Of a stretch of 41,774 nt of DNA, positions 17,527-34,431 are shown piece by piece. The position numbers were made by a program, and so were the translations under genes. The stretch's first letter is position 1. Each line of letters opens with the position of its first letter. The notes under the pieces are model-generated. The model searched no databases. It saw nothing but the letters and a program-made list of their open reading frames with translations, and had not been told where the DNA came from. The DNA is from Opitutales bacterium. GTDB lineage: Bacteria; Verrucomicrobiota; Verrucomicrobiia; Opitutales; Oceanipulchritudinaceae. The stretch is from the NCBI GenBank assembly GCA_020831485.1, contig JAFIGG010000031.1, forward strand, positions 1 to 41,774, read 5' to 3'.

Positions 17527-18729
17527 ATGAAATCCCTTCTCCTGACCAACGAATACCCCCCTTACACCTACGGCGGTGCCGGCGTTCATGTTGAGTATCT
17601 GAGCCGGGAGCTGGCGCGTTTAATGCCGGTGGAAGTACGTTGTTTTGGGGATCAGGATGTTCCCTCGGATTCCCTGGCTGTTGCCGGGTTTCAGTCGGCA
17701 CTGGCTGATGCTAACAGCCCCAGGCACTTGCGCGGAATATTCGATGCCATCCAGCGCTGCCTCCAGTTCAACGCCCGCAACATCGATGCAAATGTGGTCC
17801 ACTGCCATACCTGGTACACCCACATGGGGGGCATCATGGCAAAGCTGAATTACGGAATTCCGCTTGTTGTTACAGTGCACTCGCTGGAACCGCTGCGCCC
17901 CTGGAAACGGGAACAGCTGGGCGGTGGATACGATTTTTCCTGCTGGGTCGAGCGCACAGCGCTGGAAATGGCAGATGCCGTTATTGCCGTGTCCTCAGGT
18001 ACCCGGGCCGATGTGCTGCAGCACTTCAATGTTCCGGAGGAGCGAATACACATCATCTATAATGGCATAGATCCGGACGAATACCGCAAGGTCGACGCCA
18101 CCCCGGCGCTCGAGCGCTTTGGCATCGACCGCTCAAAACCCTATGTGCTGTTTGTCGGCCGCATTACTCGTCAGAAAGGAATCGTGCACCTCGTTGAGGC
18201 CGCCCGCCACATGGACCCATCCTACCAGGTTGTATTGTGTGCCGGAGCTCCGGACACACCTGAAATCGCTGCCGAAATGAAGGCCGCTTTTACCGCAGTT
18301 TCTGCGGAACGAGATGGCCTGTATTGGATTGACGAGAAAGTCGACAAGACATCCATCATCCAGCTCTACTCTGGAGCAGAGGCCTTTTGCTGTCCATCTA
18401 TTTACGAGCCTTTTGGCATCATAAACCTGGAAGCTATGGCCTGCGAAACACCGGTCGTCGGAACTGCGGTCGGTGGAATTCCCGAAGTGGTTCAGGACGG
18501 CAAAACCGGATATCTGGTGCCTTTGGAACAGCAGGTGGAATCCCCTTTCAATCCTTTGAATCCGGCGCAGTTTGCCCAGGATTTTGCTGCCGCGGTGAAC
18601 CGCATTATGGCCGATCCAAAACAGCGCAAAGCCTTTGCTAAGGCCGGTCGCGAGCGCGCCATTGAGCAATTCAGCTGGTCATCCATCGCTCGCCAGACCG
18701 CCGACCTTTACCGAACCCTCATTCAATGA
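17527..18729 (+). CDS. glgM: GT4 glucosyltransferase, GlgM/GlgA-like (maltose-1-phosphate synthase)
   Basis: A 400-residue GT-B glycosyltransferase of the actinobacterial-type glycogen-synthase group. The N-terminal domain opens with LLTNEYPPYTYGGAGVHVEY, the glycine-rich acceptor-side loop. The C-terminal domain carries FVGRITRQKGI and the donor-binding PSIYEPFGIINLEAMACETP with its conserved Glu residues. Members use ADP-glucose to make alpha-maltose-1-phosphate (GlgM) or extend alpha-1,4-glucan. The next gene is a maltosyltransferase GlgE whose ATG overlaps this stop (ATGA, 18726-18729), so the GlgM role is favoured. A good AAGGA ribosome site lies six to seven bases before the ATG. Which of the two activities dominates cannot be told from sequence alone. 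Confidence 0.85.
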   Translation: MKSLLLTNEYPPYTYGGAGVHVEYLSRELARLMPVEVRCFGDQDVPSDSLAVAGFQSALADANSPRHLRGIFDAIQRCLQFNARNIDANVVHCHTWYTHMGGIMAKLNYGIPLVVTVHSLEPLRPWKREQLGGGYDFSCWVERTALEMADAVIAVSSGTRADVLQHFNVPEERIHIIYNGIDPDEYRKVDATPALERFGIDRSKPYVLFVGRITRQKGIVHLVEAARHMDPSYQVVLCAGAPDTPEIAAEMKAAFTAVSAERDGLYWIDEKVDKTSIIQLYSGAEAFCCPSIYEPFGIINLEAMACETPVVGTAVGGIPEVVQDGKTGYLVPLEQQVESPFNPLNPAQFAQDFAAAVNRIMADPKQRKAFAKAGRERAIEQFSWSSIARQTADLYRTLIQ

Positions 18730-20699
18730 AATTCAAAATACCTTTTGCAGGCCGGCACCGCGTGGTGATCGACCGTTTATTGCCGTCTGTGGACGGAGGC
18801 CAATTCCCCTTTAAGCGCGTGCTTGGAGATCAGATTCGGTTCGAAGCCCATCTGATAGCCGACGGGCACGATAAAATCCGGGCTCATTTTTGCTATCGCC
18901 GCCGCGGCCAGAAGTCTTGGACAGAGCTGCCCATGCGTGATGAGGGCAATGATGTCTTCGCGGTGGATTGGACGCCGGAAGATATTGGCGTCTACGAATA
19001 CGACGTCGCGGCCTGGTGCGACGGCTTTGACAACTGGCATGCTGGTTTTGTCAAAAAAGCCGCCAATCAGGACCCGCAGATTGGCGTCGAAGTGCAGATT
19101 GGCGCCGACCTTCTGAAGGCCGCAGCCAAACGCTGCAAAGGGGATGCGTCCAAAGAACTGCGCTCCTGGGTGAACCATCTCGAGAAGGACTCGGTTTCGC
19201 TTAGCGAAAAATCCGGACTCTTGCACGACACCTATGTTTACGATAGGGTGCACGCCCAACCGGACCGCTCCCTGGAGACGCGCGTGGACAAGCCTGCCTT
19301 GCTGATAGTTGAGCGCGAACTGGCGGTTTTTAGCTCCTGGTATGAGTATTTCCCTCGCTCCTGCAGCGACGATGGTGAAACTCATGGGACTTTCAAGGAT
19401 GCGGAAAAGCGTCTGCCAGAAATCGCCAAGATGGGATTTAATATAGTCTATTTTCCACCAATTCATCCGATCGGTGAGAAGAATCGAAAGGGCCGCAATA
19501 ACGCCCTGGAAACTGTCGACGGCGATGTTGGCAGCCCTTGGGCAATCGGTTCGGCGGAAGGGGGACACAAGGCCATCCACTCCGAGCTGGGCAGTGTAGA
19601 GGACTTTCAGCACTTCATGGAAAGTGCCGCTAAACAGGGGCTTGAAGTGGCCATGGATATCGCCTTTCAATGCGCTCCGGACCATCCCTACGTGAAGGAA
19701 CACCCGCAGTGGTTCAAGTGGCGTCCGGATGGCACGGTCCAATATGCGGAGAATCCGCCCAAGAAATATCAGGATATCCTGCCGTTCGATTTCGAGACGG
19801 AGGACTGGGAAGCTCTGTGGTTCGAATTGAAATCGGTTTTTGAATACTGGATTGACAAGGGTGTGCGCATATTCCGGGTCGACAATCCGCACACAAAGGC
19901 CATGGAATTCTGGCGCTGGTGCCTTCTGGAGCTAAAAACCCAGTACCCGGATACGATTTATCTGGCGGAAGCCTTTACGCGGCCAAAGCGCAAATACCGT
20001 CTGGCCAAGGCTGGTTTCACGCAGGGGTATACCTATTTCACCTGGCGCAATCATGCCGCCGAGATGCGAAGCTATCTGGAGGAGCTGACCCAGTCCGAGG
20101 TTAAAGACTTCTTCTGGCCCAATTTCTGGCCCAACACTCCGGATATTTTGCACGAAGACCTGCAGAAGGGAACCCGTGCCACTTTTATCGGCCGCTACGC
20201 ACTGGCAGCAACTTTGTCATCCAATATTGGCATCTACGGTCCAGCCTACGAGGTCATGGATCACGAGCCCTTCCCGGGCAAAGAGGAATACAACAACAAT
20301 GAGAAGTACCAGCTGAAAGTCTGGGACTGGGAAGCTCCGGGTAATATTCGCTCGGAAATCAGCCGCATTAACAGGATCCGTAATCAAAACCGGGCCTTAC
20401 AGCGTACCAATAACCTGATTTTTGCCGATACGGATAACGAGCATCTGCTCGCTTACATCAAACAGGATTTTGACCGCAGCAATCAGATCCTTGTGGTTGT
20501 CAACATGGACTGGCGCTGGACACAGATGGGGCACGTGACCTTGCCTCTGAATGTTCTGGGTTTGGCAGAAAATCAGCCTTTCCGCATTCGCGACCTCTTC
20601 GATCCGCGCGAGACGGTCTACGAATGGAAAAAAGCCCGTAATTTCGTCAAGCTCGATCCGTCCCGTAGTCCAGCACACATATTCCGAATTGAACGATGA
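18726..20699 (+). CDS. glgE: Alpha-1,4-glucan:maltose-1-phosphate maltosyltransferase
   Basis: A 657-residue GH13-fold enzyme that transfers maltose from alpha-maltose-1-phosphate to the non-reducing end of alpha-glucan in the cytoplasm. The N-terminal domain starts with RVVIDRLLPSVDGGQFPFKR, a family hallmark, followed by a beta-sandwich. The catalytic barrel has IVYFPPIHPIGEKNRKG, the nucleophile Asp386 in FRVDNPHTKAMEFW, and the general acid Glu415 in IYLAEAFTRPK. Length agrees with the family (about 660-700). It overlaps glgM upstream and rsmG downstream by ATGA, so all three are translationally coupled. The other GlgE-pathway genes (treS, pep2/mak, glgB) are not in the window. Identification is very secure. 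Confidence 0.95.
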   Translation: MKFKIPFAGRHRVVIDRLLPSVDGGQFPFKRVLGDQIRFEAHLIADGHDKIRAHFCYRRRGQKSWTELPMRDEGNDVFAVDWTPEDIGVYEYDVAAWCDGFDNWHAGFVKKAANQDPQIGVEVQIGADLLKAAAKRCKGDASKELRSWVNHLEKDSVSLSEKSGLLHDTYVYDRVHAQPDRSLETRVDKPALLIVERELAVFSSWYEYFPRSCSDDGETHGTFKDAEKRLPEIAKMGFNIVYFPPIHPIGEKNRKGRNNALETVDGDVGSPWAIGSAEGGHKAIHSELGSVEDFQHFMESAAKQGLEVAMDIAFQCAPDHPYVKEHPQWFKWRPDGTVQYAENPPKKYQDILPFDFETEDWEALWFELKSVFEYWIDKGVRIFRVDNPHTKAMEFWRWCLLELKTQYPDTIYLAEAFTRPKRKYRLAKAGFTQGYTYFTWRNHAAEMRSYLEELTQSEVKDFFWPNFWPNTPDILHEDLQKGTRATFIGRYALAATLSSNIGIYGPAYEVMDHEPFPGKEEYNNNEKYQLKVWDWEAPGNIRSEISRINRIRNQNRALQRTNNLIFADTDNEHLLAYIKQDFDRSNQILVVVNMDWRWTQMGHVTLPLNVLGLAENQPFRIRDLFDPRETVYEWKKARNFVKLDPSRSPAHIFRIER

Positions 20700-26400: not shown

Positions 26401-27259
26401 GGCGTCTGACCGCTGGAACCCGTTCAATTGGCTGACCACGGCGGAAGCTGCTGGGTGTCTGTCCGCAGCTGGCTTTGAAGAACTTCGAAAAATGAGCTGC
26501 ATCGTGGAAACCGAGTCGCTCGGCTATCTCGTGATCTCTTCGCTCCGGATTCTGTAGCAACTGGCAGGCCTGCTCCACCAGAAAGGCCTGGCGGTAGCGG
26601 TTGGGTGAAATTCCTGCCAGTTTCTGGAAGCGTTTGCGAAAGGCATCCACCGAACAGCCCAGTTGGCGCGCAATTGCCTGCTGCCCGGTGTAGGGCAGCT
26701 CCTGGAGCAGTGCGCAGGCTTGTTGGTGCCAGGCACTCTCGCTATCGTCGATTCTGGGCTGATCTGCAGAAAGAAGGTCTGACAACAGGGTTTGCATGCT
26801 GCAGACCGTTGCCAGCGAATCCATGGATGACAGCCGGATTTCCGGCTTGGAAGGCAGAATATTGGCCATGCGCTGTGCCCAATGCCCAATGGGTTGGGCT
26901 CTCAGCACTGGACGATTGAGCGATACAACGCCGGAGTTCAACCAATGCTTGAACACAGGTCCGTCAAAAAGCAGGTAAACCTCAGACCAGCCCGATGCGT
27001 TGGTTGGGCCGTAACGGTGAGGTTCATCCGGGAAGAGCAGGAGTACGCTTCCAGATCCCACTTTCTGACGGTTTGCCGACTGTGCTTCGAAAAAGCCTTC
27101 TCCAGCCATAATATACACGAGCCCGAAGTGGGGCAGTGTTCTAAAGGTGTTCAAACCGTAGCTCGTTTTGAGGTGGCCACGCCTAAATACAGAGCCTAAA
27201 GGGCAGTCGCCGAAGTTGCGATGGACGACTTCATCGCGAAAGCTTTCCTGCCCGATCAT
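26372..27259 (-). CDS. AraC-family transcriptional regulator
   Basis: A 295-residue regulator. The N-terminal half resembles the AraC cupin-type sensor (FGLVYIMAGEGFFEAQSANR, then VLLLFPDEPHRYGP), which usually binds a sugar or related ligand. The C-terminal 100 residues hold two helix-turn-helix motifs: GQQAIARQLGCSVDAFRKRF and HEIAERLGFHDAAHFSKFFK, followed by CGQTPSSFRR. It is divergent from the SDR-led catabolic operon, with only 72 bp between the starts, so it most likely regulates that operon. It appears to have its own promoter with almost no leader. The residues SAWHQQ between the domains are encoded by a copy of the GTGCCTGGCAC repeat. Its 3' end overlaps the TonB gene by 29 bases. 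Confidence 0.92.
   Translation of the reverse strand: MIGQESFRDEVVHRNFGDCPLGSVFRRGHLKTSYGLNTFRTLPHFGLVYIMAGEGFFEAQSANRQKVGSGSVLLLFPDEPHRYGPTNASGWSEVYLLFDGPVFKHWLNSGVVSLNRPVLRAQPIGHWAQRMANILPSKPEIRLSSMDSLATVCSMQTLLSDLLSADQPRIDDSESAWHQQACALLQELPYTGQQAIARQLGCSVDAFRKRFQKLAGISPNRYRQAFLVEQACQLLQNPERRDHEIAERLGFHDAAHFSKFFKASCGQTPSSFRRGQPIERVPAVRRLIARPLKRG
26725..26737 (+). repeat. GTGCCTGGCAC repeat inside the AraC gene
   Basis: GGTGCCAGGCACT lies in the interdomain linker of the AraC regulator and encodes AWHQ on the minus strand. It is the same element as the cluster at 10311-10398, read in a different frame from other in-gene copies. Confidence 0.65.
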
Positions 27260-27266
27260 ATTCCGA

Positions 27267-27296
27267 AATATACAAGACCTTTCTCCGTTCCGTCAA
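27267..27296 (-). promoter_or_regulatory. Promoter of the AraC gene, near-leaderless
   Basis: On the minus strand TTGACG (27291-27296) and TATATT (27267-27272) are 18 bases apart; each matches the sigma-70 consensus at five of six positions. Only seven bases separate the -10 from the ATG, so transcription should start at or next to the start codon. Confidence 0.65.
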
Positions 27297-27316
27297 TCGC
27301 CTTTAGCGATGCTGTT

Positions 27317-27325
27317 TGCTATAAT
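27317..27325 (+). promoter_or_regulatory. Extended -10 promoter of the catabolic operon
   Basis: TGCTATAAT is a perfect extended -10 element. It ends six bases before the ATG at 27332, placing the expected transcription start at the start codon. No good -35 is present 16-18 bases upstream, which fits an extended -10 promoter or one needing an activator such as the adjacent AraC protein. Confidence 0.65.
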
Positions 27326-27331
27326 CAGGTC

Positions 27332-28126
27332 ATGTTATCGAATCGTTCGGTCTTAGTTACGGGTGCGGCAGGTACTTCTGGCGTAGGATTTGGTGTGGTG
27401 CAGGCGGTGATTGAGGCTGGAGGCCGGCCGATCATAAATGGCCGTAGCGCGGATCGACTGGCCGAGGCTAAGGAGCGGTTTCCATCGGCCGAGACGGTGC
27501 AGGGCGATATTTCGGACGCCGCTCAGGTGGATCGGATATTTGCGGAGGCCGTTGAAAAGGTGGGCCAGGTTGACTTTCTGGTGAACAACGCCGGCATTGG
27601 CCTGCATAAGGCTCCTCATCTCTGCGAGGAGGCGGATTTCGATCGCTTGATCGGAGTGGATTTTCGCGGCGCCTGGTTGATGGCCAGGGCTTGGCTGCGG
27701 CATGTGCTGGGTGATCGGGAGCGGGTCGAAGGCGCGGCGGCGATGGTTAATATATCCTCCATTCACGGTCAGAAAACCATGCCGGGCTACGGGCTCTATG
27801 CGGCGGCCAAGGGTGGTGTGGATGCGCTCACGCGCTCGCTGGCTGTGCATTACGGGCGGCAGGGAATTCGTGTGAACGGCGTTGCGCCGGGTTATGTGCA
27901 TTCCGAACAGAATTACGATTTGATCCGCAATTGGACGGACAACCCCGAAGGCTGGGTCGACGACCTTATTCGCAATCACCAGGCTGTTCCCGAACTGATC
28001 GAACCTATTGATGTCGGCCGCGTGGTCGTTTTCCTCTTGTCCGACAGCGCGCGGGCGATGACCGGACAAACCCTAACTGTGGATGGCGGCAGCACCACGC
28101 TGCTGTATCCCATGAATTTTGTATGA
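27332..28126 (+). CDS. Short-chain dehydrogenase/reductase (SDR)
   Basis: A 264-residue Rossmann-fold NAD(P)-dependent oxidoreductase. The cofactor loop is VLVTGAAGTSGVGFG near residue 6, then NNAGIG. The catalytic residues are Ser in NISSIHG and Tyr/Lys in YGLYAAAKGG, with RVNGVAPGYV after them and DGGSTTLLYPMNFV at the C-terminus. It probably oxidises a hydroxyl of a sugar or sugar acid. The ATG at 27332 is chosen because an extended -10 lies six bases upstream; the longer frame to 27221 would cover the promoter. It is the first gene of the operon, and its stop overlaps the next ATG (28123-28126). The substrate is unknown. Confidence 0.92.
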   Translation: MLSNRSVLVTGAAGTSGVGFGVVQAVIEAGGRPIINGRSADRLAEAKERFPSAETVQGDISDAAQVDRIFAEAVEKVGQVDFLVNNAGIGLHKAPHLCEEADFDRLIGVDFRGAWLMARAWLRHVLGDRERVEGAAAMVNISSIHGQKTMPGYGLYAAAKGGVDALTRSLAVHYGRQGIRVNGVAPGYVHSEQNYDLIRNWTDNPEGWVDDLIRNHQAVPELIEPIDVGRVVVFLLSDSARAMTGQTLTVDGGSTTLLYPMNFV

Positions 28127-29268
28127 AGGCACAGGAAACACGCATTTGCCGCTTTCGTTTGACCGAGGTTGTTGTTCCTGCGCGGGCGAACGCAGTCAAC
28201 CATCCGGACTTGGATCGACCCCTGCACAAGCTGGCGGTCGCCGGACAGGCTGGCTGGAGCATGCAGTTCGATGCCCTGCCGAAGCTCCTGATTGAAATGG
28301 AATTGGACAATGGAGTGATCGGCTTTGGCGAGTGTTACCGCGGTCATTCCTGGGCAACCGTTGAGGCGGTGGCCAAACGTTTGCTGGGGAGCACACTGGC
28401 GGCTATTCCGCTGCAGCAGGTACCCATTGCCCGCTGCCGGGAACACGATGGCCTTGAACTGGCGGTTTGGGATGCGTATGCAAAAACCCACGACCTACGG
28501 CTTTGCGATTTGCTCGGCGGTCCGCTGCGGGACCGGGTGAAGGTGGGAGCCTGGACGGGACATCGCAAGGTGGAAGAGATTCCTGCGATGGCTGCCGAAT
28601 TCGCACGCCAGGGCTTCGATTGTTGGAAGTTCAAGTGCGACTTGGAGGACGACGTGGTTGGCTGGTGTCAGGCAGTGAAGTCCGGCGCTCCCGGGATGTC
28701 TGTCATCCTCGATCCGAATGAACGCTGGGAGCAGAGTCACGAAGCGGCGCGACGTCTGCGTGCCTTGGCCGAAGTAGGAAACCTGCTTTGCCTGGAAGAC
28801 CCGTTACCGCGCTGGATGTTGGCGGAATACCGGGCCTTGCGCCACCTCGGTCTGGGCGCGGTCGCCCTGCACGTATCATTGCCCTATGTGGAACACGGGC
28901 AGCGGGTCCACGACGCTATTCTGGCACTACAGCAGGGGGCCGTCGATGCCTTCAACTTCAATGGCGGCATGGCCGAGTTCGCCCAGCTTGCGGCGATTGC
29001 CCAAGCCGCAAACCTGCCTTGCTGGCACGGGAGTGAGGTGGACCTCGGTATTCTGGAAGCCATGTATGTGCATCAAGCCGCCGCCGCGGCCACCTGCACC
29101 TGGCCCAGCGATATCTTTGGCCGCCTGGTCAGGGAGCATGACCTGCTAAAAGCATCCCTGGCCATCGAAGCTCCTTACGTGCGCCTGCCGGAGGGTCCCG
29201 GCCTGGGCGTCGAATTGGATGCCGCGGCCATTCAACATTATCAAACCCAACTGAAGATTATTGAATGA
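28123..29268 (+). CDS. Enolase-superfamily (mandelate racemase/muconate lactonizing-like) enzyme
   Basis: A 381-residue two-domain protein of the enolase superfamily. The N-terminal capping domain contains LLIEMELDNGVIGFGECY. The barrel has the KxK pair Lys169/Lys171 in CWKFKCD, and metal ligands Asp197 (VILDPNERW) and Glu225 (LCLEDPLPRW). The position where a third acidic ligand is normal reads ALHVSLPYVE, with His250 nearby and no acid in the expected place. The C-terminal segment is CWHGSEVDLGI with His302. Members abstract a proton next to a carboxylate, and many dehydrate sugar acids. It overlaps the SDR and the following fusion gene by ATGA, so a common pathway is likely. The reaction cannot be assigned. 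Confidence 0.88.
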   Translation: MKAQETRICRFRLTEVVVPARANAVNHPDLDRPLHKLAVAGQAGWSMQFDALPKLLIEMELDNGVIGFGECYRGHSWATVEAVAKRLLGSTLAAIPLQQVPIARCREHDGLELAVWDAYAKTHDLRLCDLLGGPLRDRVKVGAWTGHRKVEEIPAMAAEFARQGFDCWKFKCDLEDDVVGWCQAVKSGAPGMSVILDPNERWEQSHEAARRLRALAEVGNLLCLEDPLPRWMLAEYRALRHLGLGAVALHVSLPYVEHGQRVHDAILALQQGAVDAFNFNGGMAEFAQLAAIAQAANLPCWHGSEVDLGILEAMYVHQAAAAATCTWPSDIFGRLVREHDLLKASLAIEAPYVRLPEGPGLGVELDAAAIQHYQTQLKIIE

Positions 29269-30146
29269 AGAATCCATTTCCAACTACAGACTCCGATCGT
29301 CATGCAATTTGGCAGATGCTGGTTGAGCGGGATATTGCAGCCTTTGTTGCCCAGGATTGGAACGCCGTGGCCGATGATTTTGTCGAAGCTGGATTTATGG
29401 GTCTGGATGCTGGACGCCGCGCCAATCCTGACAGCTGGAGCATCGCCTTTCCCTCGCTGGTAGAATACCGGGCGGAATGGCTGAAACAGGCGGGACTGTT
29501 TGCCGAAAGCCATGCCGAGGCGGATCCGGTTGCAGCCATTCATCGGCTGACGACCCTGCGCGACATCGAGATTCAGGGGGATTGCGCCGTGGCGCACAAG
29601 AAATTTGATGGCGTCGTTGCCTTGAAGGATGGGGGCAAGGACCGCTTGCTCTGGCAGACACTCTACCATTGCCGGAAGGTTGACGGACGCTGGCGCATCA
29701 GCGGCTTTACCGGCTATCTGCCGAACCCGATGGGCGCCGCTGAATCCACGGTCGACAAGGGCCATCCCAAGCGTTTACCGGCGGGTGCGTCTCAGCACAG
29801 CACGGCCGGACCCTATTCGCCGGTGCTCGAAATTGAGCCGGCGAAGTTGGTCGTTATCAGTGGCCAGGCCGCCCTGGATCAGGAAGGCAAGGTGGTCGGG
29901 GAGACCATTGAAGAGCAGACAAAGCTGACTCTGGAAAACTGTTTCAAGCAATTGGCGACGGCGGGTTGCGGTCCGGCTGACGTTTTTAAGGTGAATATCT
30001 ACATGACAGACCTTGATGAGTGGCCGCGGCTGAATGCCGTTTATAAGGCGATGATGCCTGAGCCTCAGCCTGTGCGGACCGCAGTCCAGACAGGTTTGCT
30101 GTTCACGCTGAAGGTTGAAATCGAAATGTGGGCGGTAAGGCGATGA
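29265..30146 (+). CDS. NTF2-like domain fused to a RidA-family domain
   Basis: A 293-residue fusion. Residues about 10-150 resemble the SnoaL/NTF2-like fold (WNAVADDFVEAGFMGLDAG near the start, WQTLYHCRKVDGRWRISGF at the end). Residues about 180-293 are a RidA/YjgF domain: GPYSPVLEI, LVVISGQAALDQEGKVV, NCFKQLATAGCGPADVFKVN, and Arg271 in PVRTAVQT, the residue that binds the carboxylate of imine intermediates in RidA, with the acidic VEIEMWA strand. RidA proteins hydrolyse reactive enamines/imines. A fusion with an NTF2-like domain is unusual; that domain could add a binding pocket or fix the oligomer. Both ends overlap neighbouring genes by ATGA, so it belongs to the operon. Confidence 0.85.
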   Translation: MKNPFPTTDSDRHAIWQMLVERDIAAFVAQDWNAVADDFVEAGFMGLDAGRRANPDSWSIAFPSLVEYRAEWLKQAGLFAESHAEADPVAAIHRLTTLRDIEIQGDCAVAHKKFDGVVALKDGGKDRLLWQTLYHCRKVDGRWRISGFTGYLPNPMGAAESTVDKGHPKRLPAGASQHSTAGPYSPVLEIEPAKLVVISGQAALDQEGKVVGETIEEQTKLTLENCFKQLATAGCGPADVFKVNIYMTDLDEWPRLNAVYKAMMPEPQPVRTAVQTGLLFTLKVEIEMWAVRR

Positions 30147-30901
30147 TCTGGGATCGGCTGACAACGGAAGCTCTGGCGAAGGTTGACCGCAACTGTGTGG
30201 TGATCCTGCCTTTGGCCGCGACCGAACAGCATGGACCGCACCTGCCTTTGGCGACGGACCGCTTGATCGCGGAAGGTATTTGCCGGGAGGTGAATAAGCG
30301 TTGGGACGACCGAACACTGATTTTGCCTTGTCCGCCCATTGGCTATTCCGCCCATCACCGCAGCTTTTCCGGAACCCTGTCTGTTTCCCACAGTGAATTG
30401 ATGGGCTATGCCCGCGGAATGCTCGATTGTGTGTTCGCAGATGGATTTACGAACCTGCTCATTCTCAACGCCCATGGCGGCAATATCGCTCTGGGGGGTG
30501 TTCTGCAGGAATCGCTCGGTGAAGCGTATCCGCAGGCACAGACTGTATTTGGCTCCTGGTGGCAACTGGCGGCCAAAGGACTTCTCTCCATCACGGAGAG
30601 CGGGCCCGGGGGTGTTGGTCATGCCTGTGAATTCGAAACCTCGCTGATGCTGCAGTTGCATCCCGAGCTGGTTCGGAAAGAAAAGATAGTGCCTGGCACC
30701 AATGTCGCGACCTATCCTTGGGCCGAAAGTGACATGCTGAGGGGCGGTCAGGCGCGCTTACAGCGCTCGATGTCCCAGATGACCCGCAACGGCGTGTATG
30801 GGGATCCCACTGCAGCCTCCGCGGAAAAGGGTGCCCGTATTCTGAATGCGGTGATGGACGCCCTCGAACCGATTCTCAAAGACCTTTATTCAAAAAAATG
30901 A
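30143..30901 (+). CDS. Creatininase-family amidohydrolase
   Basis: A 252-residue metal-dependent hydrolase of the creatininase/ArfB family. The metal-site signature is ATEQHGPHLPLATD near residues 25-38, with Glu, His and Asp ligands, followed by NAHGGN and CEFETSLM carrying further ligands. The family cleaves cyclic amides (creatinine, formamidopyrimidine) and, in inositol pathways, ring ketones. I took the ATG at 30143, which overlaps the stop of the RidA fusion; a GTG at 30128 would add five residues. A GTGCCTGGCAC repeat copy at 30688-30700 encodes IVPGTN within the gene. The stop overlaps the next start. In this context it may open a lactone or lactam ring, which is inference. Confidence 0.9.
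   Translation: MIWDRLTTEALAKVDRNCVVILPLAATEQHGPHLPLATDRLIAEGICREVNKRWDDRTLILPCPPIGYSAHHRSFSGTLSVSHSELMGYARGMLDCVFADGFTNLLILNAHGGNIALGGVLQESLGEAYPQAQTVFGSWWQLAAKGLLSITESGPGGVGHACEFETSLMLQLHPELVRKEKIVPGTNVATYPWAESDMLRGGQARLQRSMSQMTRNGVYGDPTAASAEKGARILNAVMDALEPILKDLYSKK
30688..30700 (+). repeat. GTGCCTGGCAC repeat inside the creatininase-family gene
   Basis: AGTGCCTGGCACC lies in frame and encodes VPGT between KEKI and NVATYPW. It matches the copies at 10311-10398, 11425, 16100 and 26725. Confidence 0.65.
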
Positions 30902-31593
30902 AAATGGATTGGAAAGACGATCGTGAACTTTTTGCGCGGATGCGCAGTGAACTCTTCAGCGCCGTAGTTGGCGATGTAATGGATATCCTGGGCTACAAGC
31001 GTCAGTTCCTTCCACCGCAGGTGCAACCGCTGCGCGAGGACATGGTGGTTGTGGGCCGGGCGATGCCGGTTTTGGAAATGGATGACGAAGGAGGGGAGGG
31101 CCCTGGCCGTCAATCTGAAGTCCTGAACCGACCCTTTGGGTATATGCTGCGGGCACTCGATGAATTGAAGCCGGACGAAGTGTACATTTGCAGCGGCTCC
31201 TCTCCAAGGTATGCGCTTTGGGGTGAGCTGATGAGCCTAGCCGCCCGCAATCAGGGTGCGACCGGAGCGGTCGTCAATGGCTATTCACGCGATACACGCG
31301 GAATCCTTGAGCAAAACTTCCCCTGTTTTTCCTGGGGGCGCTATGCCCAGGACCAGCGCCCACGCGGCAAGGTGGTGGACTTTCGCTGCGGGATACGCTT
31401 TGGCGAAGTCGACGTGGCTCCAGGAGACATCGTTTTCGGCGATCTGGACGGCGTTTGCATCATCCCTAAAGCCATCGAAGGCGAAGTCATTCGCGAGTCC
31501 CTGACAAAGGTCAGCGGCGAACGGCGGGTTTACGAAGCAATTAAAAATGGCATGAAAGCCGAAACCGCCTGGGATACCTTCGGAATCATGTAA
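30898..31593 (+). CDS. RraA-family protein (putative aldolase/decarboxylase)
   Basis: A 231-residue protein of the RraA / HMG-aldolase-like family. It starts with the region VVGDVMDILGY, has GATGAVVNGYSRDTRGI, where the Arg-Asp pair forms the metal and substrate site, and ends with GDIVFGDLDGVCIIP, all typical of the family. True RraA inhibits RNase E, but catabolic-cluster members are metal-dependent aldolases or decarboxylases acting on keto acids such as 4-carboxy-4-hydroxy-2-oxoadipate. The operon position between a creatininase-family hydrolase and a transporter supports the aldolase role. The ATG overlaps the previous stop (30898-30901). The exact keto acid is unknown. Confidence 0.88.
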   Translation: MKMDWKDDRELFARMRSELFSAVVGDVMDILGYKRQFLPPQVQPLREDMVVVGRAMPVLEMDDEGGEGPGRQSEVLNRPFGYMLRALDELKPDEVYICSGSSPRYALWGELMSLAARNQGATGAVVNGYSRDTRGILEQNFPCFSWGRYAQDQRPRGKVVDFRCGIRFGEVDVAPGDIVFGDLDGVCIIPKAIEGEVIRESLTKVSGERRVYEAIKNGMKAETAWDTFGIM

Positions 31594-31611: not shown

Positions 31612-33666
31612 ATGTCCGTTCTCGCATTTGCCAATCTGCATTCCATTGATCTCGCAATCATAATTGTCCTGGTCGGGGTGGTTGCTGGATTCACACTCTA
31701 CACCCGCAGCTATACTCGAAGCGTTGCGGACTATTTGTCGGCCAACCGCTGTGCGGGGCGTTATATTCTGACGGTCGCCACGGGGATTGCGGGCATTGGG
31801 GCGATTTCAATCGTTGCGATGTGGGAGCAGTATTATCAGGCCGGATTCACCGCCCAATACTGGATACAGATGCTGGCCCCGATCGGCTTGCTCATGGCTT
31901 TGTCGGGCTGGATCATCTATCGCTATCGGGAAACCCGGGTGATGACCCTGGCGCAGTTTCTGGAGAAACGTTATAGTCGGCGTTTCAGGGTTTTTTCCGG
32001 TTTGTTGTGCTGGATCAGTGGTGTCCTGAATTATGGTATCTTTCCGGCTGTGACCGCCCGGTTTGTGATCTACTTTCTCGGCCTTCCCGTTCACCTCTGG
32101 ACAGTGCCCGGCATAGGGCTTGAGTTGAACCTGACCTTGGGTGCGGTTATGGCCGTAATGCTGGGGCTGGCAATTTTCATCACCTTGAATGGGGGTCACA
32201 TTGCCGGTATGGTGACGGACTTTATTCAGGGTTCGCTCAGCAATATTGTGTTTCTGATGCTGTTGGGTGTGATGCTCTACCTGTTCCCCTGGAGTCTGAT
32301 TGTCGAGACCCTGATGCAGGCGCCCCCAGGTGAATCGAAGCTCAATCCCTTCGACAGTGGTTCTTTGCCCGATTTCAATCCGGCCCTGTTTCTGATCCTA
32401 CTATTTCTGGCTGTCTACAATTACATGGTCTGGCAGGGAACCCAGGCTTACAATTGCTCGGCTATCAATCCGCATGAGGCGAAAATGGCGAGTATTCTGG
32501 CCCAGGTTCGTACTGGGGTCACGCTGATGTTGATCCCCCTGGCGGCGGTCAGTGCTTACGTAATGATGAATGCGCCCGTCCATGAAGCGGCAACCATGGC
32601 GGCCAATGCCCAGATTGCAGCGATTGGGGATGCGCAGATTGAAGCGCAGATGACGACGACCATCGCTCTCGCACAAATATTGCCAGTTGGCATGATGGGC
32701 CTGCTGGCGGCGGTAATGATCATGGCGGCGGTCAGCACCGACAGTACCTATTTGCACTCCTGGGGAAGTATCTTCGTGCAGGACGTCTATTCGCCGATTC
32801 GGCAGTTGCGCGGACGCGAACACCGGATCAGTCAGCGGAAGCACCTGCGGCTTTTGAAAACTTCAGTGGTTGGGGTGGCCGTGTTTGCCTGGGTGTTCAG
32901 CATGATTTTTCCTCTCAAAGAATTCATCCTGATGTATTTTCAGGCGACGGGGGCAATCTTCACCGGAGGGGCCGGAGCAGTTCTGATCGGAGGGCTCTAC
33001 TGGAAACGGGGAACGGCTGCCGGGGCCTGGGCGGCAATGATCGTTGGCAGCGTGCTGGCCGTGGGCGGCGTGTTGATAATTAATATTATCTGGCCCGTGC
33101 TCACTCCCTGGCTACAGGCTTCATTTGTGGACAACCATTGGATTCAGGCACTACCCGAGCGCTTCTGGCTCAACGGTGTGCAAATGTCTTTCCTGGCATC
33201 CATATCCGCTTGTCTGGCTTATGTGATAGGCTCTTATGCCTCAAAGGATCCACAAATCAATATGGACCGCATGCTGAACCGGGGACAATACCAGGCCGTC
33301 GCAGCTGAGGGTGCCGATCACAGCGCCCCGCCGGCGGTGGGTTGGAGAGCCATTGGCTTCAATGGTGAGTTTACCCGTGGCGACAAGTGGATCTACTGCA
33401 TTAACGTGGCCTGGGTTTCGTTCTTTTTCTTTTCTTTCGTTACCATAACTGTCTGGCAGCTATTTTACCGGTGGCCCGACAGCTGGTGGGGGAACTGGTG
33501 GCTGTTCAATGTGGTCTTTATCGGAGTAACCGGCGCGGCGACGACGGTCTGGTTTCTGATCGGCGGTACGCGTGATCTGGTTGCCCTTTTCCGGAGGCTT
33601 GGAGCCATCCAGCGCGATGCCACTGATGACGGAACCGTCGAAGAAGACGAGCACTATGGCAATTGA
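31612..33666 (+). CDS. Sodium:solute symporter (SSS family)
   Basis: A 684-residue inner-membrane transporter with about 14 hydrophobic segments. Family marks include SVADYLSANRCAGRYILTVA near the start, WEQYYQAGF, ITLNGGHIAGMVTDFIQG, VSTDSTYLHSWGSIFVQDVY (the sodium-site helix) and YFQATGAIFTGGAGAVLIGG. SSS proteins couple sodium influx to uptake of sugars, sugar acids, amino acids or sialic acids. The C-terminal tail beyond residue 560 contains two further membrane segments. It lies 18 bp after the RraA gene in the operon and is the only transporter there, so it should import the pathway's substrate. Its last codons overlap the start of the AGE remnant by 11 bases. Confidence 0.93.
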   Translation: MSVLAFANLHSIDLAIIIVLVGVVAGFTLYTRSYTRSVADYLSANRCAGRYILTVATGIAGIGAISIVAMWEQYYQAGFTAQYWIQMLAPIGLLMALSGWIIYRYRETRVMTLAQFLEKRYSRRFRVFSGLLCWISGVLNYGIFPAVTARFVIYFLGLPVHLWTVPGIGLELNLTLGAVMAVMLGLAIFITLNGGHIAGMVTDFIQGSLSNIVFLMLLGVMLYLFPWSLIVETLMQAPPGESKLNPFDSGSLPDFNPALFLILLFLAVYNYMVWQGTQAYNCSAINPHEAKMASILAQVRTGVTLMLIPLAAVSAYVMMNAPVHEAATMAANAQIAAIGDAQIEAQMTTTIALAQILPVGMMGLLAAVMIMAAVSTDSTYLHSWGSIFVQDVYSPIRQLRGREHRISQRKHLRLLKTSVVGVAVFAWVFSMIFPLKEFILMYFQATGAIFTGGAGAVLIGGLYWKRGTAAGAWAAMIVGSVLAVGGVLIINIIWPVLTPWLQASFVDNHWIQALPERFWLNGVQMSFLASISACLAYVIGSYASKDPQINMDRMLNRGQYQAVAAEGADHSAPPAVGWRAIGFNGEFTRGDKWIYCINVAWVSFFFFSFVTITVWQLFYRWPDSWWGNWWLFNVVFIGVTGAATTVWFLIGGTRDLVALFRRLGAIQRDATDDGTVEEDEHYGN

Positions 33667-33897
33667 TGTTGGTAAACTTGCGATTCAATACCGTGACGAG
33701 TTGCTGAATGAGGTGATCCCGTTCTGGGTCCAGTATTCGCCGGATAGAGAGTTCGGCGGCTACTTCAGTTGTCTGGATGCCGCGGTCAGGTCTCACTCAA
33801 TCTTAAAGGCGGAAAGTGGAAGGGCTGCTTCCATACGCCCCGTGGCCTGTTTCAGTGCTGGAAAACTTTGGAGGCAATCGCACAGTCCACTAGTTGA
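33656..33897 (+). pseudogene. AGE-family epimerase remnant with internal deletion
   Basis: The ATG at 33656 starts a normal N-terminus of an N-acylglucosamine 2-epimerase ([20 protein letters not shown], then YFSCLD), but this stops matching at about base 33778. From there, in another frame, bases 33781-33897 read [20 protein letters not shown] and [13 protein letters not shown], ending at TGA, which is the C-terminus of the same family. A protein of about 400 residues has thus lost its middle 320 or so residues (around 1 kb) and shifted frame at the join. Both ends of the family have an LD-R-G-like turn at this point, so recombination between short similar sequences could explain the loss. 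The product should be inactive. It is the last gene of the operon. Confidence 0.8.
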
Positions 33898-34360
33898 GGT
33901 CGCCGAGATACAGTGAAGGAGGATTGCAGCCCTCCGGCTTGAAATACTGCTTGAGGCTTTCTGGGTAAAAGCGAATTAAGTGCAGATTCTCCAGATCTAG
34001 CCAGCTGACCCCCACCTGATAATTGTCGGTTTCGCAACCAGGAGATGCCGTTTCCGGATTTTTGACGGAGCAGAGGAAAACATGTTCCAATTGGTGGAAT
34101 GCGGCGTGGCGCTTGGAAAAATTGTGGTTTTTGCCGATGTATTCGCGTATGTAGAGCAGGCGCTCGACTTCCACTTCCAAGCCGACCTCTTCAAGGCACT
34201 CGCGGCGAACGGCTTCTTCCAGAGTTTCGCCGTGATTTTGACCGCCTCCGGGAAGAATGTAGAATACGCCGCGGCGGTCCCGCATTTTTGTCGCGAGGAG
34301 TTTGCCGTCACATATTATGACCGCCCGGGCGGCGGTGCGAATTGATCTGTTGTGCGCCAT
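33890..34360 (-). CDS. Nudix hydrolase
   Basis: A 156-residue Nudix-fold pyrophosphohydrolase. The Nudix box is complete: [18 protein letters not shown] followed by LEEVGLEV, with the catalytic Glu pair in EEVG. Such enzymes cleave nucleoside diphosphates linked to another group, such as ADP-sugars, (d)NTPs or NAD. The ATG at 34360 is preferred; a TTG at 34387 would add nine residues. Its 3' end overlaps the epimerase remnant by eight bases (convergent). Together with the ferredoxin and miaA genes upstream it could form a minus-strand operon. The substrate is not predictable. Confidence 0.9.
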
Positions 34361-34431
34361 TGAAGGAATGACGGCACGATAGGCCAATGGCTGGCTTCAA
34401 CACAAGCCCGAAGGCAGGGCAGGGATAGTCG

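Follow-up and report, generated by a model that had tools for sequence, protein, structure and literature searches.

In all probability, an operon with a symporter gene in the window, the stretch of 41,774 bases that was analysed as a whole, ends in a pseudogene of the N-acyl-D-glucosamine 2-epimerase (AGE) family, the interior of which was lost by a single internal deletion. The head and the tail of the gene are both present, the middle is missing, and the reading frame changes between the two parts. We infer that the loss was a single event, that it took the slippage route, and that it is recent.

The head (33656..33778, forward strand) begins with an ATG at 33656 and comprises 41 codons, being colinear with AGE proteins through Asp41, whose codon ends at 33778; it matches positions 3-37 of the 384-position NCBIfam profile NF052547 (E 1.9e-12, 46.9 bits). 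The tail (33781..33897, forward strand) comprises 38 codons at 33781-33894 and a stop codon at 33895-33897, and matches positions 352-384 of the same profile (E 1.4e-14, 53.9 bits). Two bases (33779..33780, forward strand) are left between the aligned parts, and hence the tail is out of frame with the head. The original prediction, which spoke of some 40 N-terminal and some 35 C-terminal residues of an AGE-family epimerase joined out of frame, thus agrees with what is found, and the profile search it proposed yields AGE similarity on either side of the join.

Both pieces are also recovered in a scan of the whole genome with NF052547, at 33674-33784 (E 3.8e-11) and 33781-33879 (E 5.2e-13) of contig C93 of G000. 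We also built a custom HMM with 29 intact AGE genes from the same order; an unfiltered search of every one of the window's 1,113 six-frame segments returned significant matches to the head (8e-10) and the tail (5.6e-09) only, with the next segment at 0.34. The fragments are short and had no match in Pfam, so that NCBIfam and the custom HMM were needed. Compared with the NF052547 AGE proteins of the renin-binding-protein type (Anabaena 2gz6, Nostoc 6f04, pig 1fp3), the remnant matches both ends of the family, whereas it is devoid of profile positions 38-351 of 384 and its two pieces are in different frames. The tail matches the C-terminus of the cyanobacterial AGE in 2gz6 and 6f04; its 13-residue motif is family-like, retaining GKWKGCFH with the active-site Trp and the equivalent of His373.

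The head is matched best by the intact AGE gene on contig C95 of G096, a genome of the same order (locus L108; 63% identity over 30 aa), and this gene also ranks first or second for the tail (56-60% identity); it is full-length and is not adjoined by a symporter of the window's type, whereas the window copy is a remnant. When subfamily HMMs were applied, the head scored 35.3 bits with the WKG-type model vs 14.8 bits with the KDPFHLPR-type one, and the tail 31.8 vs 3.3 bits. As the two parts favour one and the same subfamily of intact AGE genes, the WKG type, we count these scores in favour of their origin from one gene.

The remnant is placed between a sodium:solute symporter gene (31612..33666, forward strand; PF00474, E 4.4e-20) and a convergent NUDIX hydrolase gene (33890..34387, reverse strand; PF00293, E 9.1e-17). 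As read from the sequence, the AGE gene shares its first 11 nt with the end of the symporter gene and, at its own 3' end, 8 nt with the 3' end of the NUDIX gene; therefore, both natural ends of the AGE gene are still in place, and a clean internal deletion is the simplest account. Elsewhere in the window, a GlgE-type maltosyltransferase gene (18726-20699) directly follows a gene that, by eye, is glycosyltransferase-like (17527-18729).

In the 29 intact relatives, the points equivalent to the two sides of the join are separated by 942-963 nt, which corresponds to approximately 0.94-0.96 kb missing here, close to the loss of about 1 kb originally predicted; the net deficit is ~940 nt, or ~315 codons (codons 42 to ~355). 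For nAGE10, the Nostoc enzyme of structure 6f04, Arg58 and Glu309 have been proposed as catalytic by comparison with a related epimerase, Glu243 is close to the reacting carbon, and Trp368 and His373 line the active site (PMC6333288). In the alignment to nAGE10, the positions of Arg58, Glu243 and Glu309 fall in the deleted part, and those of Trp368 and His373 in the tail. Since the catalytic Arg and Glu are gone along with most of the barrel, the 86-residue product of the frame opened by the head is not an epimerase; judged by what its sequence retains, the remnant cannot act as one. Membership of NF052547 was also tested by asking for a full gene in one frame, of ~390 codons and including the two catalytic residues (Arg and Glu), which is not what the remnant offers. 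Both fragments score under the curated cut-off of that model (600 bits), as do intact relatives of the same order (404.9 and 364.2 bits).

It had further been predicted that both break sites encode a similar LD-R-G turn. In intact relatives such turns are indeed encoded at both sites, in the form L-(D/H/G)-R-x-G-x. At the DNA level, the two break sites of the 29 intact relatives form a modest repeat, being 43-76% identical over 21 nt with a longest identical run of 3-9 nt, and at the median this likeness exceeds that of about 98% of the other in-frame windows. At the join itself, a local repeat search revealed no surviving direct repeat. A shared run of 3-9 nt suits a deletion at short homology and speaks against an assembly collapse. 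The likely course of events would be as follows: an AGE gene once closed the symporter-containing operon; its interior (~0.94-0.96 kb, codons 42 to ~355) would have been lost in a single internal deletion, most likely by slippage or end-joining between the two sites encoding the L-D-R-x-G turn; and an exchange one base out of register would have shifted the tail to another frame. The join is one base shorter than an in-register exchange would have left it; alternatively, the deletion could be in frame and the one-base shift an error of sequencing or of the consensus.

The join rests on one consensus sequence, and the window is the complete 41,774-base contig C93 of a draft genome (3.86 Mb). 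The gene might thus be intact in the organism, its ends having been joined by the assembler or by a chimeric read, as the original prediction also allowed when it named an assembly artefact at a repeat-like sequence. The draft state of the genome, with its 142 contigs, and the resemblance between the two break sites favour such an artefact; however, the exact stretch common to both sites is at most 3-9 nt in the 29 intact relatives, while the overlaps normally required by assemblers are well above that length, and the NF052547 scan of the whole genome finds the missing middle on no other contig of the assembly. We regard an artefact as quite improbable and prefer a real loss.

The proposed search for a second AGE gene in the genome yielded two further members of the superfamily, both of subfamilies other than that of the remnant. 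The one on contig C132 scores best with the D-mannose isomerase model, at 87.9 bits, which is under the cut-off of that model. The one on contig C14 (L128 1-1062) is of the KDPFHLPR type and 58% identical to a gene of G056. It is cut off at the first base of its contig, and its match to the profile starts at position 40, exactly the point at which the window head ends; no other contig carries the head that it lacks. These facts would fit a gene split by a rearrangement or misjoin, with the head in the window belonging to the truncated C14 gene and the tail to a second AGE gene. The window head, however, scores 20 bits better with the WKG-type model than with the KDPFHLPR-type model of C14, whereas true KD-type heads score higher with the KD model in 11 of 11 cases, and nothing in the rest of the assembly repeats the first 200 bases of C14. 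We therefore hold such a split to be very unlikely and treat the agreement between the start of the C14 gene and the end of the window head as a coincidence. The subfamily scores likewise speak against the headless C14 gene as the source of the missing part. Hardly any credence can be given to the reading in which the frame of the head, open to 33913 (86 residues), encodes a functional small protein: the frame is open, but what follows residue 41 is the tail in the wrong frame, running over the 3' end of the NUDIX gene, and the head by itself makes up only part of an alpha/alpha barrel. An internal deletion in a single AGE gene remains our preferred reading.

As for the age of this deletion, all 17 columns that are invariant among the 29 relatives are kept in the remnant (8 of 8 in the head and 9 of 9 in the tail), and hence the loss looks recent. 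If the remnant drifted freely, a rough upper bound on the time since the loss is ~0.08 neutral substitutions per site, a figure that presumes ~2.25 nonsynonymous sites per codon. No intact copy at the same site was found in close relatives.

Upstream of the symporter, five close-set genes (27221..31593, forward strand; Pfam) encode an SDR protein, an MR/enolase-superfamily protein, a Rid-domain protein, a creatininase-like protein and an RraA-like protein, and we read them as the front of the same operon as the symporter and the AGE gene. The Rid-domain protein has an additional N-terminal part, and a gene for an AraC regulator is divergent to the cluster. The same five genes recur in three other genomes (G188, G096 and G076), being clustered in loci L106 and L107 and reordered in L109, and in none of the three is an AGE gene found beside them. 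When 373 genomes from the order and 388 from the phylum were searched, in samples that overlap, strong matches to the enolase-superfamily gene beyond its own genome were confined to these three genomes, so that the cluster appears to be rare among the sampled genomes.

An intact orthologue after the symporter in relatives, which the original prediction had suggested looking for, did not turn up: apart from the remnant of the window itself, there is no AGE gene in the flanks of 69 related symporter loci drawn from the order and phylum samples and from public genomes, some of these loci having been fetched twice and some having short flanks. In named public genomes, the closest symporters belong mostly to Coraliomargarita, Puniceicoccaceae and Opitutia bacteria, so that the window most likely comes from a verrucomicrobial member of that order. 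In G188, which carries the closest symporter (76%), a separate fragment of ~61 residues (L061 3536-3856) resembles the C-terminal end of that symporter (69%) and looks like the remains of a second symporter copy. Among related symporters of G063 (L025 and L069), one copy has an in-frame TAG and another gives two overlapping partial matches. Decay of such symporters may be common.

The original prediction had proposed the recent loss of one pathway step. The loss does look recent, given the 17 of 17 retained columns. A required pathway step may or may not have gone with it, as no relative examined keeps an intact AGE gene after the symporter. In two relatives, AGE genes of the remnant's subfamily adjoin N-acetylneuraminate-lyase-like (NanA-like) genes. 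A sialic acid (nan) catabolic operon was considered for the window and rejected, with no nan gene among the neighbours examined and NanE absent: a search of the genome did not find NanE, and of its three DHDPS-family genes none is above the NanA cut-offs. Some BNR_2 sialidase-like matches are located elsewhere in the genome. With no NanA-like neighbour, no NanE and no DHDPS-family gene passing the NanA cut-offs, the lost step need not have been a required one, and the AGE gene may have entered the operon late and been dispensable there.

In its kind, the remnant is a probably recent pseudogene of a known family (GlcNAc/ManNAc 2-epimerase), a case of ordinary gene decay and not something new. 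As in ordinary internal-deletion pseudogenes, both ends of the gene are kept, the middle is gone and the frame is broken, and nothing sets the window case apart from them. As an instance of an internal deletion at two sites that encode similar turns, it is small but clear. The annotation is corrected accordingly, in that the operon encodes no working AGE at this place, and therefore predictions of its pathway should not count one. A further reading, which we consider conceivable though rather unlikely, is that only in this lineage did the AGE gene join the unusual creatininase/RraA/enolase-superfamily sugar-acid operon, from which it was later removed because the pathway had come to do without epimerization of the GlcNAc/ManNAc type; if so, the AGE remnant would be left over from the remodelling of a catabolic operon.
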